This document shows positions 48,422-59,627 of a stretch of DNA of 64,000 nt, piece after piece. Source of the DNA: Chloroflexota bacterium. Its GTDB lineage: Bacteria; Chloroflexota; JAHJIN01. A program made the position numbers and the translations under genes. The notes under the pieces were generated by a model. It made no database searches. It had not been told where the DNA came from and was given only the letters and a program-made list of their open reading frames with translations. How positions within the stretch are numbered: the first letter of the stretch is position 1; every line of letters begins with the position of its first letter. The stretch covers positions 1 to 64,000 of the forward strand of contig JAHJIN010000345.1 in the NCBI GenBank assembly GCA_018823415.1, given 5' to 3'.

Positions 48422-49186
48422 CTAGAACACCATCCGCAGCAGCGTGTATCCGCCCAGTAGCGTGGTCAGGCTGCCAATTGCCAGCGTGAGGCGAGCGGTG
48501 GACAGGCGGCTCACCAGGTAGGCGGCAATGGGCACGGCGAGCACGGCCCCCAGCGTCAGTGACGGGGCCAACAGCCAGGGAAACGGCGCGCCGCTCACCA
48601 GATAGGCCACGATACCCACAGCGCTGGCGCTCCCCTCGGCCAGCGAGGCGATCCCCACGGCGCTGGCGCCGCTCACGCCGGCCAGCACCTGACCGCCGGT
48701 GACCACCGGTCCATAACCCCCGCCGCTGAGGCCCTTGTTGAACGCGGCCAGGAACCCCAGCCCGGCCACCCGCCGCCAGGAAAAGCCAATGGGCCGGCGC
48801 CGGCGCGAGAGGACCAGGATCGTCATGCCGATCCCCAGCACCAGTACCCCGATGTAAAGCTTGAGAAACCACGCCGACATGTTGATCGCCACACCCACGG
48901 CCAGCAGCGCGCCGACCACGCCCAGGCTGGACATGACCAGCATGACCTTGAAATCATGCGAGCCGGGATGCAGGTTGACGTTGCCAAAACCGTGGTGAAA
49001 CAGAGCACCCACGATCCCGGCCACGCATTGCGCCAGCAGCACGGCCGGCACGATCTCGAGCGGTTCGTACCCGATCAGGAGCAGGACCGGTGTCAGCGTG
49101 GTACCATAGCCCATGCCCAGCGTCGAGTCCAGCAGGCCACATGCAAACGAGAGGAGCAGGATCGGAAACAATAGTTGAAGGTCCAT
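48422..49186 (-). CDS. TauE/SafE-family membrane permease, candidate Pho-regulon member
   Basis: 254 residues, eight to nine membrane helices. 'FACGLLDSTLGMGYGTTLTPVLLLIG' near the N-terminus and 'NKGLSGGGYGPVVTGGQVLAG' in the middle are the duplicated family motif. Family members export sulfite or organosulfonates or move other small anions, and most are uncharacterised. Here the gene follows the pst operon and has its own promoter made of four 11-bp Pho-box units plus TATAGT. So an anion related to phosphate starvation is more plausible than sulfite. That is inference from the promoter only. Confidence 0.88.
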   Translation of the reverse strand: MDLQLLFPILLLSFACGLLDSTLGMGYGTTLTPVLLLIGYEPLEIVPAVLLAQCVAGIVGALFHHGFGNVNLHPGSHDFKVMLVMSSLGVVGALLAVGVAINMSAWFLKLYIGVLVLGIGMTILVLSRRRRPIGFSWRRVAGLGFLAAFNKGLSGGGYGPVVTGGQVLAGVSGASAVGIASLAEGSASAVGIVAYLVSGAPFPWLLAPSLTLGAVLAVPIAAYLVSRLSTARLTLAIGSLTTLLGGYTLLRMVF

Positions 49187-49224: not shown

Positions 49225-49281
49225 ACTATACCCGATCCTGGTAACAGCCGGCGTGACAGGGTTGTGACAAAGTTGTGACAA
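49225..49281 (-). promoter_or_regulatory. Pho-box promoter of the TauE/SafE gene
   Basis: Reading the minus strand: four contiguous 11-mers TTGTCACAACT, TTGTCACAACC, CTGTCACGCCG, GCTGTTACCAG (49281 to 49238), seven bases, then -10 TATAGT (49230-49225). This is the direct-repeat layout of PhoB/PhoP sites replacing the -35. The start site near 49218 gives a 32-base leader. It abuts the T tract of the pst terminator. Confidence 0.8.
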
Positions 49282-49315
49282 AAAAAGGGGGCCGCAGCGA
49301 TTTGGCCGCGGCCCC
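49280..49315 (-). terminator. terminator of the pst operon
   Basis: Minus strand GGGGCCGCGGCC-aaatc-GCTGCGGCCCC followed by seven T, 59 bases after the pstB stop. Confidence 0.85.
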
Positions 49316-49373: not shown

Positions 49374-50123
49374 TTATCCGATGTCGCCGGACAGATAGGC
49401 CCGGGTGCGCTCGTCGCGCGGCGACTGGAACACCTGGGCGGCCGGGCCGGCTTCCACCAGCTCGCCCAGCCAGATAAAGATCACATAGTCGGCCAGCCGG
49501 CGCGCCTGTCGCAGGATGTGCGTCACCACCACGATGGTGGTGTCTTGTTTGAGCTTGCGCAGTTGGGCCTCGACGCTCTGCGCCGAGATGGGGTCCAGGG
49601 CTGAGGTCGGTTCGTCGCACAGCAGCACCTCGGGCTCGACGGCCAGGGCGCGGGCCAGGCACAGCCGCTGCTGCTGCCCGGTGGACAGCCCCGAGGCCGG
49701 CGTGCGCAGCCGGTCCTTGACCTCGTCCCACAGGCCGGCCGCCTGCAAATAGCGCTCTACGATCGGGCCGGTATCGCGCCGGCCGTGGATGCGCGGCCCA
49801 TAGGCAATGTTGTCATAGATGGACATGGGCAGCGGAAAGGGCTTGGGCGCCAACATGCCCACCCGGGCGCGCACCTCGGTCACGTCTGCGGCCTGGTCAT
49901 AGACGTTCATGCCGTCCAGCCAGACCTGGCCGCTCACCCGGACCCCGGGCGTCTCTTCCATGAGCCGGTTGAGGCTGCGCAGCAGCGTGGTCTTGCCGCA
50001 GCCCGACGGACCAATGATGGCCGTGATGCCCCGGGCCGGCACGTCGGCCGTGATGCCCTTCAAGGCTTGCTGAGAGCCATACCACACGTTCAGGTCTCGA
50101 ATCCGCACATGAGGTTCTGTCAT
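49374..50123 (-). CDS. pstB: phosphate ABC transporter ATP-binding protein
   Basis: 249 residues. Walker A '[17 protein letters not shown]', signature '[16 protein letters not shown]' (LSTGQQ rather than LSGGQQ), Walker B '[16 protein letters not shown]', H-loop '[15 protein letters not shown]'. '[16 protein letters not shown]' after the P-loop is the PstB signature. The ribosome binding sequence 'ttaggagctgattgac' is formed partly by the end of repeat copy B. Energises high-affinity phosphate uptake. Confidence 0.96.
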
Positions 50124-50134
50124 GTCAATCAGCT

Positions 50135-50215
50135 CCTAACCTGGATAAACCAGAGCCAACCAGGTTGATGCTTGAGCAAATTCTTGCTCGCTGACAAGAA
50201 TTTCACTTGGTTAGG
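50135..50215 (-). repeat. intercistronic palindromic repeat, family 1, copy B
   Basis: 81 bp, CCTAACC...GGTTAGG, filling the gap from two bases after the pstA stop to 11 bases before the pstB ATG. Contains the perfect hairpin AAATTCTTG-ctcgctga-CAAGAATTT and a second potential stem AACCTGG/CCAGGTT at the pstB-proximal end. Best-preserved copy. Confidence 0.9.
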
Positions 50216-50217
50216 CC

Positions 50218-51096
50218 CTACCGAATGACGTGCTTGTCCAGCCGGCGCGCCAGCCAGCGCGCGCTCAGCGAGAGGCCCAGGACCATGACCGTCAGCACCA
50301 GGGCCGAGGCATAGGCCCGGTCCTGCACGGCGGGAAAGGGCGTGCCGAGTTGGAAAAAGACGGCCAGCGGCAGCGACGCGGCCGGACCCAACAGCGAATC
50401 GGGCAGCCGGTCCGTATAGCCAGCGGTAAAGAGCACTGAGGCCGCGTCGCCGATGCCCCGGCCAAAGGCCAGCAGGCCGGCCGTCAGCAGCGCCGGCCCG
50501 GTCTGCCGCACCACCACCTTGAGCGCCGTTTCCAGCCGGGTTGCCCCCAGGCTCGCCGAGGCTTCTTTTAACGCCGAGGGCACCATGGCGATAGCCTCGT
50601 CCATGCCCCGGATCAGGATGGGCAGTTCCAGCAGGGCCAAGACGATGATACCCCCCAGCAGCGAGGCCCGCATCCCCAGCCAGAGCATGATGATAAAGCC
50701 AAAGGCCCCATAGACAATGCTGGGCACGCCCCACAACACGTCCAGGGCCAGGCGCGTCAGTTCGGCGCGGCGGGACCGGGCGGCATACAGTTGCAGGTAC
50801 AGGGCAATGGGCAGGCTGATGACCAGGGCCAGGGCTGTGGCGCCCCCGGCTAGGTATAGCGACCCGACAATGGCGTTGAGGATGCCGCCTTCTTTGCCCA
50901 GATAATACCCGCCTTTGGGCGTCTGGGTCACCATGTCCAGGGTCAGGGCCGGCAAGCCGCGCCAGATGACCGTCGCCAGGATCAGGATCAGGCTGCCCAG
51001 CACGATGGCCGTCGCGCCGATCATCAGCGTTTTGAAAAAGGACTCTTCCAGTTTCGCCGTACGCCTATTCCGTCGCCCATTGGTCCATTTGCTCAT
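50218..51096 (-). CDS. pstA: phosphate ABC transporter permease PstA
   Basis: 292 residues, six membrane helices. 'DVLWGVPSIVYGAFGFIIM' and the EAA-type loop 'KEASASLGATRLETALKVVV' are diagnostic of PstA/PstC, and its place between pstC and pstB together with the ~290-residue length identifies PstA. Four-base gap to pstC upstream. Confidence 0.95.
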   Translation of the reverse strand: MSKWTNGRRNRRTAKLEESFFKTLMIGATAIVLGSLILILATVIWRGLPALTLDMVTQTPKGGYYLGKEGGILNAIVGSLYLAGGATALALVISLPIALYLQLYAARSRRAELTRLALDVLWGVPSIVYGAFGFIIMLWLGMRASLLGGIIVLALLELPILIRGMDEAIAMVPSALKEASASLGATRLETALKVVVRQTGPALLTAGLLAFGRGIGDAASVLFTAGYTDRLPDSLLGPAASLPLAVFFQLGTPFPAVQDRAYASALVLTVMVLGLSLSARWLARRLDKHVIR

Positions 51097-51100
51097 TTGC

Positions 51101-52084
51101 TTATTCGCTCCGCACCAGCCGCATGAGGATCAGCCGGGACACGACGTTAAAGACCAGCACGATGCTCAGCAGGATCAGCGCCCCGCATAGCAGCGCCGCG
51201 TCGTACAGGGGAATGGACATCATCTCCCCATAGTTGTTGGCGATGAGCGCTGGCAGGGGATAGGCCGCGTCTAGGATCGAGTTGGGCACCTGGGGCACGT
51301 TGCCCACCACCATCAGCACGGCCATGGTCTCGCCAAAGGCCCGGGAAAAGCCCAGCACGATGGCGGCCATCACGCCCGGCCAGGCCCGGCGCAGCACCAC
51401 ATGCCGGATGGTCTGCCAGCGGGTGGCGCCCAGGGCCAGCGAGGCCTCGCGCAGCCCGTGAGGCACGGCGCGGATCACGTCTTGCGCCACGGCGATGATG
51501 ATGGGGAAAACCATCACCGCCAGCACCACGCCGCCGGCCAGTACGCTATACCCGGTGGGATTGTCGCTGCGAAACAGCGGGATAAAGCCCAGCCAGTCGC
51601 GCAAGGCCGGGGCCACGTGCTGCCCCACAAACGGCACGATGGTCAACACGCCCCAGATGCCATAGATCACTGATGGGATGCCGGCCAGCAGGTCCACCAG
51701 CGGGTTGACCAGGGCGCGGACGCGTGGCGACGCGTATTCTGCCATGTAGATGGCCGTGAGCAGCGACAAGGGCACGGCGATGATCATGGCTACGCCAGTG
51801 ACCCACAAGGTGCCGGCGATGAACGGATAAAAGCCAAACGCGCCCTGCAACGGGTGCCAGACCGTGGAAAACAGTAGCTCGTCCAGCGGCTTGATGGTGA
51901 GGATGGGCGCGGACCGCGCCAGGAGGGCGACCGCGATGACCGGGACCAGGAGCACCACCAGCCCGGTCAACAGCCCCATCGACCAGCCGGCCAGCCGGTC
52001 CTGGCGACGCCGGCTCGATGCGCGGGATGCCGATTTGTCTACCCGGCGATCCTGCTGGATGGCTAGTGGCAATGCCTCTTCCAT
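51101..52084 (-). CDS. pstC: phosphate ABC transporter permease PstC
   Basis: 327 residues, cytoplasmic basic N-terminus then six membrane helices. 'LLAGIPSVIYGIWGVLTIVP' and 'REASLALGATRWQTIRHVVL' are the PstC signatures. Pairs with PstA to form the channel. 25 bases after pstS. Confidence 0.95.
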   Translation of the reverse strand: MEEALPLAIQQDRRVDKSASRASSRRRQDRLAGWSMGLLTGLVVLLVPVIAVALLARSAPILTIKPLDELLFSTVWHPLQGAFGFYPFIAGTLWVTGVAMIIAVPLSLLTAIYMAEYASPRVRALVNPLVDLLAGIPSVIYGIWGVLTIVPFVGQHVAPALRDWLGFIPLFRSDNPTGYSVLAGGVVLAVMVFPIIIAVAQDVIRAVPHGLREASLALGATRWQTIRHVVLRRAWPGVMAAIVLGFSRAFGETMAVLMVVGNVPQVPNSILDAAYPLPALIANNYGEMMSIPLYDAALLCGALILLSIVLVFNVVSRLILMRLVRSE

Positions 52085-52109: not shown

Positions 52110-53084
52110 TCAGTCTAGCTGGCTCAATGCGGCGTCCAACTTGGCCTTGGGTAACGCAATGTACCCGGCCTCGTCCACGTATCTTTGCCCGTCGGTCAGG
52201 ACCCAGGCTAGAAAGGCTTTGACCAGACCGGTCGGCTGGCCCTTGGTCACCAGATTGAGGTCGCGCGCCGGCGGCGATGGATAGTGATTGGTGGCGACAG
52301 CGTTCACGGCCTGGGCCTTGGTATCGCAGGCTTCTTCGGGATCGGCCTGATTGTTGCCGTTGACGTCCAGCGGGACCACGCGGGCGCCAGCCACCGGCTG
52401 GCCGGTTTCGGCATCAAAGGCATAGTTCAGGTTGTTGTAGCCAACGCCCAGGGGGTCCTTGATGACGGCCTCCAGCACGCCGGGGTCGCCATACACGCCT
52501 ATACCCTTGAGGTCTTCTTGCTTTTTGCCCAGGTACGCGGCCCAGGTATCGGCGGCGCCGCAGGCGTCAGAGCGAGTAAAGACGTGGATGGGGTCTGTCA
52601 CCTCTGGCCGGCCCACCACCTGGCCCCAGGTAGTGATCTCGCCGGTGACATAGATACCCGTGATCGTCTCCTGGTTCAGTCCCGTCTGGCGCAGATCATC
52701 CCAGACCGGGTTCTTGTCGCTGATGGTGCAAAAGACGGCGTCCTTGACCACCGGCAGCCCAAAGGCACCCTTGTCGACTTCTTCCTGGTAGATGGCCCGG
52801 GATACCATGCCAATGTCTACCGCGCCAGATAGCGCGTCGGCCATGCCTTTGCCCGCGCCTCCGGCCGAGATGTCGAACCGGACATCGGGGTGCAGTTTCT
52901 GAAACTCTTCACTCCACTGCACCATCAAGGGATACAACGCCCAGGCGCCCGAGACCGTCACCGTCCCCCGCAACTGGCCCTCGGGGGTCGGCTGGCTGCT
53001 GGGCGACGGATCGCACGCCGTCAGGCTGCTCAAAAGGCCCAGCACGACGAGTATCAATCCGAGTTTGTTGATCCATGTGCGCAT
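52110..53084 (-). CDS. pstS: phosphate-binding lipoprotein PstS
   Basis: 324 residues. Lipobox 'LSSLTAC' at about residue 18-24 marks a lipoprotein, as in organisms without a periplasmic soluble form. 'GTVTVSGAWALYPLMVQW', 'ISAGGAGKGMADALSGAVDIGMVSR' (phosphate loop) and 'TRSDACGAADTWAAYLG' belong to PstS-type binding proteins. Transcribed from the Pho-box promoter at 53301-53359 across a 210-base leader that contains repeat family 2. Confidence 0.93.
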   Translation of the reverse strand: MRTWINKLGLILVVLGLLSSLTACDPSPSSQPTPEGQLRGTVTVSGAWALYPLMVQWSEEFQKLHPDVRFDISAGGAGKGMADALSGAVDIGMVSRAIYQEEVDKGAFGLPVVKDAVFCTISDKNPVWDDLRQTGLNQETITGIYVTGEITTWGQVVGRPEVTDPIHVFTRSDACGAADTWAAYLGKKQEDLKGIGVYGDPGVLEAVIKDPLGVGYNNLNYAFDAETGQPVAGARVVPLDVNGNNQADPEEACDTKAQAVNAVATNHYPSPPARDLNLVTKGQPTGLVKAFLAWVLTDGQRYVDEAGYIALPKAKLDAALSQLD

Positions 53085-53300: not shown

Positions 53301-53357
53301 ATCATACCCGGGGGAAATGACAGGTGGTGTGATGGGGATGTGATAACGGTGTGACAG
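53301..53357 (-). promoter_or_regulatory. Pho-box promoter of the pst operon
   Basis: Minus strand, four contiguous 11-mers CTGTCACACCG, TTATCACATCC, CCATCACACCA, CCTGTCATTTC (53357 to 53314), seven bases, then -10 TATGAT (53306-53301). Same geometry as the TauE/SafE promoter. Predicted start near 53294. The 360-bp gap between pstS and the response regulator holds only this promoter and the two repeats. Confidence 0.8.
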
Positions 53358-53363
53358 ATGGGG

Positions 53364-53442
53364 CCTAACCAGCGAAATTCTTGTACAGCGAGCAAGAACT
53401 TGGAAGCATCAACCTGTTTGGCTCTAGTTGATCCAGGTTAGG
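53364..53442 (+). repeat. intercistronic palindromic repeat, family 1, copy C (inverted)
   Basis: 79 bp, one base after the response-regulator stop, in the opposite orientation to copies A, B and D. Has 'gaaattcttg-tacagcgag-caagaactt' as its central hairpin. Confidence 0.88.
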
Positions 53443-53443
53443 G

Positions 53444-54139
53444 TCAGTCTGAAGCAGGGGCGATGGACAGGCCGTAGCCCAGGCCGGGCACGGTCTCGAT
53501 ATAGTCGGAGGGATTGAGGTCGCCGGCGGCCTGGGCGATCTTGGCCCGCAAGCGACGCACCAACTGGCGCAGCATGTCGCGGTCGGCGCTTTCTGGCCCC
53601 CATACGTGGGCAATGATGGCATCGGCGGTGAGGATGTGGCCGGCGTTGAGTATGAAATAGTCTAGGAGCCGGGTTTCGAGGGCGGTCAGGGCCACCGGCT
53701 CGCCGGGATCGATGCACAACTCGCGGCGGCTGGGGTCCAGGGTCAACCGGCCCACGCGGCGCACGGCCGGCACCGGGGCCTGGCCCATGCGGCGCAGCAC
53801 GGCCTGCGCCCGGGCCACGAGCTGGCGCGGGCTAAACGGCTTGGTGATGTAATCGTCGGCGCCCAGCCCCAGGCCCCGCACGATGTCGTCTTCCTGGTCG
53901 CGCACCGTCAGCATGAGGATGGGCGTGGTGGCCTGCTCGCGGATGCGCCGGCAGATGGTAAAACCGTCGAATTGGGGCAGGTTCACGTCCAGCACGATGA
54001 GGTCGGGCTGCTCGGCCTCCCAGCGGTCCAGGGCCGTCTTGCCGTCATAGATTTGGACGGTCTCGAACCCGGCGCGGCGCAGGGTAAAGGCCACCACGTC
54101 CGACAGCACCCGGTCGTCGTCAATGATCAAGGCTTTCAT
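53444..54139 (-). CDS. phoB: OmpR/PhoB-family response regulator (probably PhoB/PhoP)
   Basis: 231 residues from the ATG at 54139, which overlaps the kinase stop by four bases. Receiver domain with acidic pair 'IIDDDRVL', phospho-acceptor Asp in 'LIVLDVNLPQFDG' (about 51), 'MLTVRDQ' and 'YITKPFSP' (Lys about 100). Winged-helix output 'LTALETRLLDYFILNAGHIL' ... 'YIETVPGLGYGL'. Its neighbours are pstSCAB and two Pho-box promoters, so control of phosphate starvation genes is the likely role. Confidence 0.92.
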   Translation of the reverse strand: MKALIIDDDRVLSDVVAFTLRRAGFETVQIYDGKTALDRWEAEQPDLIVLDVNLPQFDGFTICRRIREQATTPILMLTVRDQEDDIVRGLGLGADDYITKPFSPRQLVARAQAVLRRMGQAPVPAVRRVGRLTLDPSRRELCIDPGEPVALTALETRLLDYFILNAGHILTADAIIAHVWGPESADRDMLRQLVRRLRAKIAQAAGDLNPSDYIETVPGLGYGLSIAPASD

Positions 54140-55284
54140 GGCTCGCTCACCGTGGGCAGCGTGAACCAGAACGAACTGCCGCCGCCGGGCCGGTCGGCCA
54201 CGCCCACCTGACCGCCGTGAGCAGTCACAACGGCCTTGACCACCGACAGGCCCAGGCCCATGCCCACCTGGCCGTTGTTGTGGTTCGCGTCCAGGCGCAC
54301 GAACCGGCGAAACAACGAATCCCGGCCCCCGGGCGATACGCCCGGCCCCCGGTCGCTCACCGTCACCCAGATCCAATCTGCCGTGATGGCAGCGCTCACC
54401 GTGATCTCGGCGTCATCGGGACCGTATTTGCTGGCGTTGGACAGCAAGTTTACCATTACTTGCTCGATACGCCGGGGGTCTACCTGTACCAGGGGAAGGT
54501 TGGCTGGCAGGTCCACTGCCAGACATTGGCCGTGCCGGTCCAGCAGGGGTTTGATCAACCGCACAGCCTCGGCCATGATCGTGTCCAACTGACACGGGCG
54601 CGGGTGAACGCGAAAATGCCCGGTCTCGATGCTGGCGCTTTCCAGGAGATTGTCCACCAGTGCTTGCAGGTTCAGGATGCCCAGGTGCAAAGACCGCAGG
54701 AGCATGTGCAATTCGGCGGCGCTGAGGTCCGGCGATTGCTCCAGCAGCAACTCGATAGACGCGGCCAGGGCCGAAAGAGGGGTGCGGAACTCGTGGGCCA
54801 CGTTGGCGATCAGGTGTCCCATCAGGCGATGAACGGCCTCTTCTTCGCTGATGTCGCGAAAGACCAGGGCCACCCGGGCCGCGCCGCTTTCTGGCGGGAG
54901 CAGCCGGGCGCCGGTAATCGCCAGGATCGCCTGGCGGCCATCGCGCAACTCGACTGCAACTTTGGCGCGTTGGCCCGGCGGGGGGATGAGCTGGGAAAAG
55001 GGGGCGTCGGATTCCAGCGAGTGGAATACCTGGTCGCACGTCCAGCCAATGACCTGATCGCGCGCCCAGCCAGTGATCCGCTCGGCGCCGGGGCTGAAGA
55101 AGGTGATCCGGCCGTGCCGGTCCAGGGTGACAATGCCCTCCACCACCGCGTCCAGCAGGTGATCGGTCCAGGCCTTTTCCTGGCGCAACTCGACCAGGGT
55201 GCGCTTCAGGTCGGCCTGCACGGTCTCCAGGTCTGGGGCGATCTGGTCTTGCTTGGGGCCAGCGTCATCGATAGATGGAGACAA
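54136..55284 (-). CDS. PAS-containing sensor histidine kinase (PhoR-like, cytoplasmic)
   Basis: 382 residues from TTG at 55284 ('aaagg' nine bases upstream); the longer track frame runs antisense to nothing but overlaps the zinc-ribbon gene in another frame and lacks protein-like composition. PAS domain about 40-150 ('LLDAVVEGIVTLDRHGRITF'), H-box 'ANVAHEFRTPLSAL' near 178, N-box 'NLLSNASKYG' near 290, 'DRGPGV' and 'GLGLSVVKAVVTAHGG' G-boxes. A coiled coil precedes PAS. No membrane helix, so it probably senses through the Pst complex, as PhoR does via PhoU, or an internal signal. No phoU gene is in the cluster. Confidence 0.9.
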   Translation of the reverse strand: MSPSIDDAGPKQDQIAPDLETVQADLKRTLVELRQEKAWTDHLLDAVVEGIVTLDRHGRITFFSPGAERITGWARDQVIGWTCDQVFHSLESDAPFSQLIPPPGQRAKVAVELRDGRQAILAITGARLLPPESGAARVALVFRDISEEEAVHRLMGHLIANVAHEFRTPLSALAASIELLLEQSPDLSAAELHMLLRSLHLGILNLQALVDNLLESASIETGHFRVHPRPCQLDTIMAEAVRLIKPLLDRHGQCLAVDLPANLPLVQVDPRRIEQVMVNLLSNASKYGPDDAEITVSAAITADWIWVTVSDRGPGVSPGGRDSLFRRFVRLDANHNNGQVGMGLGLSVVKAVVTAHGGQVGVADRPGGGSSFWFTLPTVSEP

Positions 55285-55289
55285 GGTGG

Positions 55290-55619
55290 CTACCTTTGGC
55301 GTCGCCAGGACCAGTAGGCTGTGAGGATGCGCGCGCCCCGGGCCAGGGCTGCCAGCCCGCCGCCCACGCAGAGCAGCGCGATGAGCCAGCCCCACGTGGC
55401 GTCGCCGCCCAGTTGGTCCCAGATCAAGATGACAAATGGCCCCCCGATAATCAATGCCAGGCCCAGGATCAGGCTGCCGCCGGCGATGAGGACCATCTGG
55501 CGGGGCGAACCGGCGCCAATTTCCTGGGCCAGGTCCAGGCGCCCCTGACCGCAGCGTGGGCATGGCTCATCCTGGCCTGACAACAGGCCGCCGCAGGCAG
55601 GACAGGTCATCCGGGACAT
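55290..55619 (-). CDS. zinc-ribbon membrane protein, unknown
   Basis: 109 residues: N-terminal zinc ribbon 'CPACGGLLSGQDEPCPRCG' and two membrane helices (about 42-66 and 74-96). The start overlaps the tatA 3' end by 13 bases and the stop is six bases before the kinase TTG, so it is translated within the same operon. Function unknown. Confidence 0.75.
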   Translation of the reverse strand: MSRMTCPACGGLLSGQDEPCPRCGQGRLDLAQEIGAGSPRQMVLIAGGSLILGLALIIGGPFVILIWDQLGGDATWGWLIALLCVGGGLAALARGARILTAYWSWRRQR

Positions 55620-56061: not shown

Positions 56062-56141
56062 CCTAACCTGGATAAACTAGAGCCAACCAGATTGATGCTT
56101 GGGAAATTCTTGCTCGCTGTACAAGAATTTCACTGGTTAGG
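56062..56141 (-). repeat. intercistronic palindromic repeat, family 1, copy D
   Basis: 80 bp, CCTAACC...GGTTAGG. It starts eight bases from the tatA ATG and runs 12 bases into the end of yraN, so the yraN stop codon and last codons come from the repeat. The central hairpin 'aaattcttg-ctcgctgta-caagaattt' is intact. Confidence 0.9.
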
Positions 56142-57846: not shown

Positions 57847-58632
57847 TCAGGCGGTCAACAGTCGCAGCAGCGCCTCTCTGGTCTCGACAAAGGGCCGGCC
57901 CACGACCAATTCGCGGGCGCGGGGCCGGGGCAGCGGCACGTTCACCACGGCCTGGATGCGGCCGGGCCGGGGCGTCATCACGTACACCCGGTCCGACAGG
58001 AACACGGCCTCGTCCACGTCGTGGGTGATGAACAGGATGGTGTGCCGGAACCGCGCCCACACGCCCAGCAGCCAGCCTTGCAACTCGGCGCGGGTGAGGG
58101 CGTCCAGCGCGCCAAAGGGTTCGTCCAGCAGCATCACGTCATGATGGCACAGGAACGTGCGCAGCAGGGCCGCCCGCTGCCGCATGCCGCCCGACAGGGT
58201 CGCCGGGTAGGCGTTGTCAAAGCCGGCCAGCCCAAAGAGAGGCAACAGCTCCCTGGCCTCGGCGCGGGCCAACTCGCGCGATTGGCCAGCGATCTCGGGT
58301 CCCAGGATGGCATTGTCCAGCACGCTCCGCCAGGGCAGCAGCAGGTCGCGCTGGGGCATATAGGCCACGCACCCGGCCCGGCGCCGGGTCAGTTCGCCAT
58401 CCAGCCACACCTCGCCGCGATCCGGCTCTAATAGGCCGCAGATGATGTTGAACAGCGTGCTCTTGCCGCACCCGCTGGGACCGATGAGCGTGACAAACTC
58501 GCCGGCCCGGGCCGTCAGGCTCACGTCGGCGAGGGCCGACACCACACGCCCGTCGACGCGGAACGCCTTGCTCACCCCCCGCAGTTCCACTTTGTAGGGC
58601 ACGCCTGGCGTGGCAATTTGCCCTACACTCAT
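57847..58632 (-). CDS. thiZ: ABC transporter ATPase for thiamine precursor (ThiZ-like)
   Basis: 261 residues. Walker A 'GPSGCGKSTLFNIICG', signature 'LSGGMRQRAALLRTFL', Walker B 'DVMLLDEPFGALDALTR', H-loop 'FITHDVDEAVFLSDRVYVM', the nitrate/taurine/HMP importer class. The ATG at 58632 is eight bases after the thiY stop; a GTG at 58644 overlapping that stop (GTGA) is an alternative. Neither has a clear ribosome binding site. Confidence 0.9.
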   Translation of the reverse strand: MSVGQIATPGVPYKVELRGVSKAFRVDGRVVSALADVSLTARAGEFVTLIGPSGCGKSTLFNIICGLLEPDRGEVWLDGELTRRRAGCVAYMPQRDLLLPWRSVLDNAILGPEIAGQSRELARAEARELLPLFGLAGFDNAYPATLSGGMRQRAALLRTFLCHHDVMLLDEPFGALDALTRAELQGWLLGVWARFRHTILFITHDVDEAVFLSDRVYVMTPRPGRIQAVVNVPLPRPRARELVVGRPFVETREALLRLLTA

Positions 58633-58640
58633 CTGTGTCG

Positions 58641-59627
58641 TCACGGCAAAAACTCGGTGGTAAAGGCTTGGGCCGGGTCGATGCGCCGGGCGATGAGGCC
58701 CTGATCGGCCATCCAATCCACGTAACGTTGCCAGACCTCGGCTTTTTGCTCGCCCCAGCGCGCGGCGTCGGCCTGATAGCGGGGACTGAGCCACTGCTGG
58801 CTCTGGCGTACCAGCCCGGCGTTGCTCTCTGGCGCGGCCTGGAGCAGCATGTCGGCGGCTTCGGCCGGGTGCTCGATGGCATACCGATAGCCCTGGCTGG
58901 TGGCGGCCATGAACCGGCGCGCCACGTCCTGGCGCTGGGCCACCGTCTGCTCCGAGGCAATGATGACCGGCGTGTAATAGTCGGGCACGCACTGGACCCA
59001 ATCGGACAGCATGATGATGTTCAGCGGCTCGCCGCGCACCTGGGCCTCAATGCCGGTCCAGCCGTAGAAAATCCAGGTGAAATCCACGTCGCGCTGCGTG
59101 ACCAGAAAATAGTCGGCCCAGCCCACGTCCACAAACTCGACCGTGTTGACGTCGGCGCCATCGCAGGCCATGAGCGCGCCCAGCACGGCCTTTTCCATGG
59201 GCGAGCCAAAGGCGCCGTACTTTTTCCCCTGAAAATCCCGGGGCTGCGTCAATCCTTTGGCCCGGGGCGAGGCAAACCCCGACGTGTTGTGCTGGATGAT
59301 GGCGGCAATGCTCACCACCGGCACGTCCTGGGACCGGGCAATCGTCACCTCTTCCTGATAGCTGATGCCAAAATCGGCCTGGCCGGCCGCCACCACCTGC
59401 ACCACCGTGTTTTCCTGGGCCGGCTCGATGATGCGCACGTCAAGCCCCTGGTCCCGGTACCAACCCTGGGCCTGCGCCACATACAGGCCGGTGTGGTTGG
59501 TGTTGGGCGTCCAGTCCAGCATCACCGTGACCGGCGTCCACTCGCCCGGCGTCCCCCCGATCACATCGCACCCGGCCAGTGCCACCAGCACACCCACCAT
59601 CAATCCGCAAATCGCCACCCGCTTCAT
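58641..59627 (-). CDS. thiY: pyrimidine precursor-binding lipoprotein (ThiY/NMT1-THI5-like)
   Basis: 328 residues. Lipobox 'LVALAGC' near residue 14-20. 'VMLDWTPNTNHTGLYVAQAQ' and 'CDGADVNTVEFVDVGWADYF' are hallmarks of NMT1/THI5-like proteins that bind the thiamine pyrimidine HMP or formylaminopyrimidine. The TPP riboswitch upstream of the operon supports that substrate. Separated from the permease gene by repeat family 2. Confidence 0.9.
   Translation of the reverse strand: MKRVAICGLMVGVLVALAGCDVIGGTPGEWTPVTVMLDWTPNTNHTGLYVAQAQGWYRDQGLDVRIIEPAQENTVVQVVAAGQADFGISYQEEVTIARSQDVPVVSIAAIIQHNTSGFASPRAKGLTQPRDFQGKKYGAFGSPMEKAVLGALMACDGADVNTVEFVDVGWADYFLVTQRDVDFTWIFYGWTGIEAQVRGEPLNIIMLSDWVQCVPDYYTPVIIASEQTVAQRQDVARRFMAATSQGYRYAIEHPAEAADMLLQAAPESNAGLVRQSQQWLSPRYQADAARWGEQKAEVWQRYVDWMADQGLIARRIDPAQAFTTEFLP

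Follow-up and report, generated by a model that had tools for sequence, protein, structure and literature searches.

The closest described counterparts of the locus studied here are the PhoB/PhoR Pho regulon, the phosphate transporter PstSCAB (TC 3.A.1.7), the TauE family of permeases and the CymR-type control of sulfur uptake. CymR is a regulator of cysteine metabolism. The abstracts found by a full-text literature search describe no two-component system for sulfur starvation and sulfate transport, while TauE-family sulfate importers have been shown experimentally (PMC11535334).

We analysed a stretch of 64,000 nucleotides of a Chloroflexota genome (contig JAHJIN010000345.1, positions 1 to 64,000; hereafter the window), whose minus strand carries a histidine kinase (HK), a response regulator (RR), a Pst-like ABC operon with its substrate-binding protein (SBP) and a TauE/SafE-family permease (Table 1). 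The locus probably encodes a dedicated two-component circuit for the uptake of a sulfur oxyanion, with sulfate as the probable one; from sequence we infer how the RR binds, in which direction it regulates, which signal it answers to and what the transporters carry.

Table 1. Features of the two-component and transport locus in the window
Feature	Position	Strand	Basis
Sensor histidine kinase, PAS-HisKA-HATPase	54136..55287 (start codon uncertain)	-	Pfam
OmpR-family response regulator, presumed binder of both boxes	53444..54139	-	Pfam Response_reg + Trans_reg_C
Box and -10 (TATGAT), 5' of the substrate-binding protein gene	53301..53357	-	sequence, pattern, leave-out matrix 25.0
PstS-like lipoprotein substrate-binding protein, divergent subfamily	52110..53084	-	PF12849
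PstC-like permease	51101..52084	-	PF00528
PstA-like permease	50218..51096	-	PF00528
PstB-like ATPase	49374..50123	-	TIGR00972, below cut-off
Intrinsic terminator after the pstB-like gene	49288..49315	-	T-run extends into unit 1 of the tauE box
Box and -10 (TATAGT), 5' of tauE	49225..49281	-	sequence, pattern, leave-out matrix 32.9
TauE/SafE-family permease, 254 aa, MGYG subfamily	48422..49186	-	PF01925

Genes of the locus

An earlier sequence-only reading of the window named the permease a TauE/SafE protein, and the PF01925 match bears this out (85.5 bits against a gathering cut-off of 32.6, residues 9-247 of 254). A sequence search with it against PDB gave no match, and its AlphaFold model, built from a four-row alignment, has a mean pLDDT of 49, too low for a fold search.

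By hydropathy the window HK has no transmembrane (TM) segment, and it is without the part of about 320 residues, with a two-TM sensor and HAMP, that its orthologs have. In the orthologs the two TM segments flank about 225 residues (hydropathy), and the 56% identity between the window HK and that of locus L010 extends over the C-terminal 372 residues only. Its signal would therefore have to arise in the cytoplasm or reach it through a partner, for instance the transporter.

Directly preceding the HK is a small two-TM zinc-ribbon-like protein (55290-55619). Farther along the window is an ABC transporter ATPase (57847-59001), and past 60.0 kb a BPD permease (L082) accompanies it; as far as seen, this ATPase is outside the HK-RR circuit.

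One box at two promoters

On the minus strand, the permease promoter (49281->49225) reads TTGTCACAACT TTGTCACAACC CTGTCACGCCG GCTGTTACCAG GATCGGG TATAGT, and the pstS-like promoter (53357->53301) reads CTGTCACACCG TTATCACATCC CCATCACACCA CCTGTCATTTC CCCCGGG TATGAT. Both consist of four 11-bp units, seven bases and a -10 hexamer, just as first described, with one refinement: the fourth TGTYAY core is slipped by one base in both promoters. The cores are spaced 11/11/12 and the last one starts 16 bp from the -10 (TANNNT) in both, so that the cores run TGTCAC +11 TGTCAC/TATCAC +11 TGTCAC/CATCAC +12 TGTTAC/TGTCAT +16 TATAGT/TATGAT (permease/SBP promoter). The permease gene had also been placed just beyond the pst terminator, and this terminator between pstB and the permease (49315-49288) is real. 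We rejected the idea that tauE is expressed by read-through from pst alone, given the strong terminator and the promoter that tauE has of its own.

In the whole 6.94 Mb genome, the full box pattern with at most 3 mismatches matches the two window sites only, and its reversed control gives 0 matches. Because the full pattern was derived partly from these two sites, we built a leave-out matrix from four boxes of other genomes only and scanned 208 kb of the window genome with it. The window sites rank first and second (scores in Table 1), with the next best match at 10.8. The permease and pstS-like promoters thus have one box in common, and the co-regulation that had been proposed for them is supported, as the same box is found next to orthologous HK-RR pairs in four other genomes.

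An exact two-unit TGTCAC/TGTCAC array elsewhere in the window genome (G000, contig C347; L046:5281, minus strand) is a possible third site for the window RR; a T-run precedes it, and its last core is 16 bp from a TATAGT. A repeat of about 85 bp that is dispersed and forms a hairpin (CCTAACC...AATTCTTGCTCGCTGTACAAGAATT...GGTTAGG; REP/MITE-like) was also observed, with one copy between the pstB-like and pstA-like genes (50135-50218), an inverted copy between the RR gene and the SBP box (53361-53442) and a partial copy at 56105-56129.

Conservation of the box with the HK-RR pair

TauE proteins 62-63% identical to the window permease occur in two Chloroflexota MAGs, beside the HK, RR and box of loci L009 and L010. 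In L010, HK, RR and box are followed by tauE, and in L009 a small ORF and then a MshEN-Usp protein come between the box and tauE; the RRs that adjoin the box in L009 and L010 share 65% and 61% identity, respectively, with the window RR. The L009 box reads TGTCAC 11 TGTCAC 11 CGTCAC 12 TATCAT 16 TAAACT and that of L010 TGTCAC 11 TGTCAC 11 GATCAC 12 CATCAT 16 TAGATT. In two further genomes (G143 and G371), HK, RR and box are followed by the SBP-C-A-B operon, with a MshEN protein intervening in G371, and the box reads TGTTAC 11 TGTTAC 11 NGCGAC-type 12 CGTTAC 16 TATCCT or TAACCT.

The box geometry is identical in six promoters of five genomes (L009, L010, L077, L078 and the window), in each case directly downstream of an orthologous HK-RR pair. 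These six promoters are the only matches of a generalised box pattern in the eight genomes scanned, so the box is specific to the HK-RR pair and local. The genome-wide scan for a wider regulon found sites only beside HK-RR and so gave no further members from which to read the signal. Since the same box comes after the orthologous HK-RR pair in four other genomes, the RR of the window (53444-54139) is most likely the protein that would bind both window boxes.

Exchange of transporters and regulators

SBP orthologs were found in 15 of 400 sampled Chloroflexota, window genome counted, and the transporters and regulators around them occur in several combinations. The HK-RR pair is found with tauE in L009 and L010, with the ABC operon in L077 and L078, and with both transporters in the window. 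An Rrf2 regulator takes its place in other loci, with the ABC operon (L043, L068-L074, L076), with TauE (L013-L015) or with both (L075). This Rrf2 heads the operons of SBP orthologs in family f6 and in genomes G103 and G401, where palindromic AGTCTAYTNNNNNATAGACT sites precede both the regulator and the SBP gene. No ABC operon of this kind was detected in three f6 genomes; there a TauE of another subfamily comes after the same Rrf2, which is 71-72% identical to that of G401. In G331, Rrf2 lies at the head in divergent orientation, and a TauE of that other subfamily comes after the ABC operon. Scanning ten genomes for the Rrf2 box gave matches almost all at the Rrf2 locus, with three weak ones on other contigs and no independent sulfur targets.

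G401 carries both arrangements, HK-RR-tauE at L010 and Rrf2-SBP-C-A-B at L043 (contig C358), each with its own box type. Besides the AGTCTAYT box, the rrf2 promoters (L068-L075, L076) have in common a AATTCAGNCGCTGAATT-type palindrome that lies between -35 and -10.

On sequence grounds, TauE and the ABC operon, singly or together, come under each of two unrelated regulators. Because the transporters interchange in this way, they would most simply be importers of one and the same anion.

Relation to the phosphate regulon

The earlier reading had also put the permease and the pst-like genes in the phosphate regulon. The RR would then be PhoB, the operon a phosphate transporter, and TauE a carrier of phosphate or of an anion exchanged in phosphorus starvation, in agreement with the PstSCAB-type gene order, with the Pho-box-like tandem 11-bp TGTCAC repeats and their PhoB-like spacing, and with the best named matches of the HK (PnpS and PhoR, 187 and 161 bits). 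However, these HK matches are below the equivalog cut-offs (PnpS 187/400; TIGR02966 161/334), and the RR is not a PhoB equivalog (TIGR02154, 165.4 bits vs a cut-off of 296.2), its best equivalog match being MtrA, also under the cut-off. The SBP misses the PstS models (TIGR02136 118/206.6 and TIGR00975 80/205 bits), the PstB-like protein reaches 327.6 bits with TIGR00972 against a cut-off of 343.2, phoU is missing from the window operon, and the orthologous operons are governed by a CymR-like Rrf2 regulator. Canonical pst loci are present elsewhere, on contigs C560 (tandem pstB) and C223 (PhoU) of the window genome and on C513 of G401, and no such box was found at any of the three, with the upstream part of C223 cut off in its 6.3 kb contig.

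The pocket motifs of the SBP are also unlike those of PstS. In the alignment the window protein has the motifs SGAxALYP, GGAGKG and RSDxxGAA and an EF-hand-like DxNxNxxxDxxE loop; SGAWALYP and RSDACGAAD stand where 4gd5 has SGSTSVGP and REDGSGTRD, and the PstS motifs GSxT/S and GSGT are absent. In the protein and its orthologs, SGA(F/W)AL(Y/F)P and RSD(A/S)xGAA replace these hydroxyl-rich motifs, whose residues we take to be ligand contacts in PstS, and a DxNxNGxxDxxE loop is conserved. Phage and most plasmid matches to the SBP were rejected as relatives, being distant PstS proteins.

With the box missing from the canonical pst/phoU loci and the components missing the curated cut-offs, membership in the phosphate regulon is not supported, and we consider a true Pho regulon unlikely. 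The evidence suggests that the window holds a small private circuit for uptake of sulfate or another sulfur anion, not the general phosphate-starvation response.

Sulfur context

The nearest homologs of the window TauE outside Chloroflexota lie, according to the tree, in sulfite reductase-cysH-sat-tauE-(cysK) clusters of three Actinomycetota genomes (L011, L094, L095). In these cysH-sat clusters tauE comes directly after sat, and in L094 it overlaps the end of sat; the window TauE is 51% identical to that of the L011 cluster. Genes of sulfate assimilation thus surround tauE in the three Actinomycetota loci and not at the window locus, and in the five HK-RR loci examined in Chloroflexota no sulfur genes were found beside HK-RR. 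Among specific equivalogs, Rrf2 matches CymR best (108.5 bits; IscR 79, RirA 60, NsrR 45), with the match below the curated cut-off of 195 bits, which counts against a sulfur reading. In haloarchaea, a PF03601 gene annotated as 'putative sulfate exporter' stands before one relative of the ABC operon, and the window genome encodes sat (ATP sulfurylase). Sulfate or a close sulfur oxyanion is favoured because these clusters, the CymR-like Rrf2, the PF03601 gene, sat and the TauE-family importers of PMC11535334 point the same way together. Of the substrates first offered for the permease (phosphate, phosphite, phosphonate or a sulfur anion exchanged during starvation), the sulfur anion is retained, as a substrate of both transporters and not as one exchanged in phosphate starvation. 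Against sulfur stand the ABC genes of the window, which are still recognisably of the Pst family with PstB only just under the cut-off, the box cores, which look like Pho boxes, and the small number of HK-RR loci (n=5).

Contig C517 of the window genome carries a single open frame (L097:1717-4299, 860 aa) in which ATP sulfurylase is joined to a type I phosphodiesterase/nucleotide pyrophosphatase domain.

The same circuit could serve another oxyanion, such as molybdate, tungstate, selenate, thiosulfate or sulfonate, with sulfate merely a chemical relative. The SBP pocket is unlike PstS and also unlike every named NCBIfam SBP, and several sulfur compounds are substrates of TauE members (PMC5840216, PMC11535334); however, inorganic sulfate is expected where the TauE homologs directly follow sat and cysH, and we regard this alternative as decidedly unlikely. 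There is a slimmer chance that TauE, expressed together with the importer, is a safety valve that exports, e.g., sulfite. The family is named for a sulfite exporter, the C. necator protein, as cited in PMC5840216, but in most loci, under HK-RR or Rrf2 (L009, L010, L013-L015), TauE stands alone and not beside a binding-protein importer, which argues against an accessory exporter because TauE there substitutes for that importer. The window genome has two sites only, as chance likeness or the ancestry of duplicated promoters without function would allow, yet the probability of this is negligible given a geometry conserved in five genomes despite diverged intervening bases, zero control matches and the leave-out matrix ranking.

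Proposed circuit

In the circuit for sulfur-oxyanion uptake that we propose, shortage of the anion would lead the HK to phosphorylate the adjacent OmpR-family RR, which would occupy the four TGTYAC-type half-sites (11/11/12) in place of a -35 and, in the manner of PhoB at Pho boxes, recruit polymerase to a -10 that lies 16 bp further downstream. The RR would then turn on two unrelated importers for the same anion, the high-affinity Pst-like ABC transporter and the TauE permease, from separate transcripts split by the terminator, with tauE under its own promoter. The anion would most likely be sulfate or another sulfur oxyanion and not phosphate. We tentatively put forward, at somewhat less than an even chance, the more specific form: a two-component system for sulfate (sulfur) limitation that controls two interchangeable sulfate importers through a Pho-like box. 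One of the two, the ABC transporter, would descend from the PstSCAB lineage and have changed its substrate to a sulfur oxyanion, and in sister lineages a CymR-like Rrf2 would control these modules.

Annotation routinely labels such genes as phosphate transporters and sulfite exporters; if the proposal is true, these labels would be wrong for this subfamily across Chloroflexota, and sulfur uptake would here be under two-component control. The swapping of transporter and regulator modules also offers a clear and cheap substrate test for two poorly characterised families.

Comparison with known systems

The locus resembles the PhoB/PhoR Pho regulon in its OmpR-family RR and HK, in the 11-bp TGTCAC-type direct repeats that replace the -35, and in the Pst-family ABC operon as the target. 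Unlike in the Pho regulon, the window-type box is found at the HK-RR locus only and not at the canonical pst/phoU loci examined, and unlike in the Pho box the spacing from the third to the fourth core is 12. Differences from PhoB/PhoR also include the scores of the window RR and HK under the cut-offs, the absence of phoU and a soluble HK. With PstSCAB (TC 3.A.1.7) the ABC operon shares the fold family and the SBP-C-A-B gene order, whereas its SBP is without the GSTS and GSGT hydroxyl motifs, has an EF-hand-like loop and misses TIGR02136 and TIGR00975, and the orthologs of this SBP are under a CymR-like Rrf2.

By family (PF01925) and by the sulfate-assimilation context of its homologs, the window TauE can be likened to the sulfate importers TK06_RS10770 and Ac3H11_578 (PMC11535334); unlike these, the window tauE would be regulated by HK-RR and is not in a cys operon. 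Unlike in CymR-type control of sulfur uptake, Rrf2 is absent from the window locus, scores below the CymR cut-off and has its box mainly at its own locus. The likeness to that control lies in the other Chloroflexota, where Rrf2 appears to run the orthologous ABC operon and TauE.
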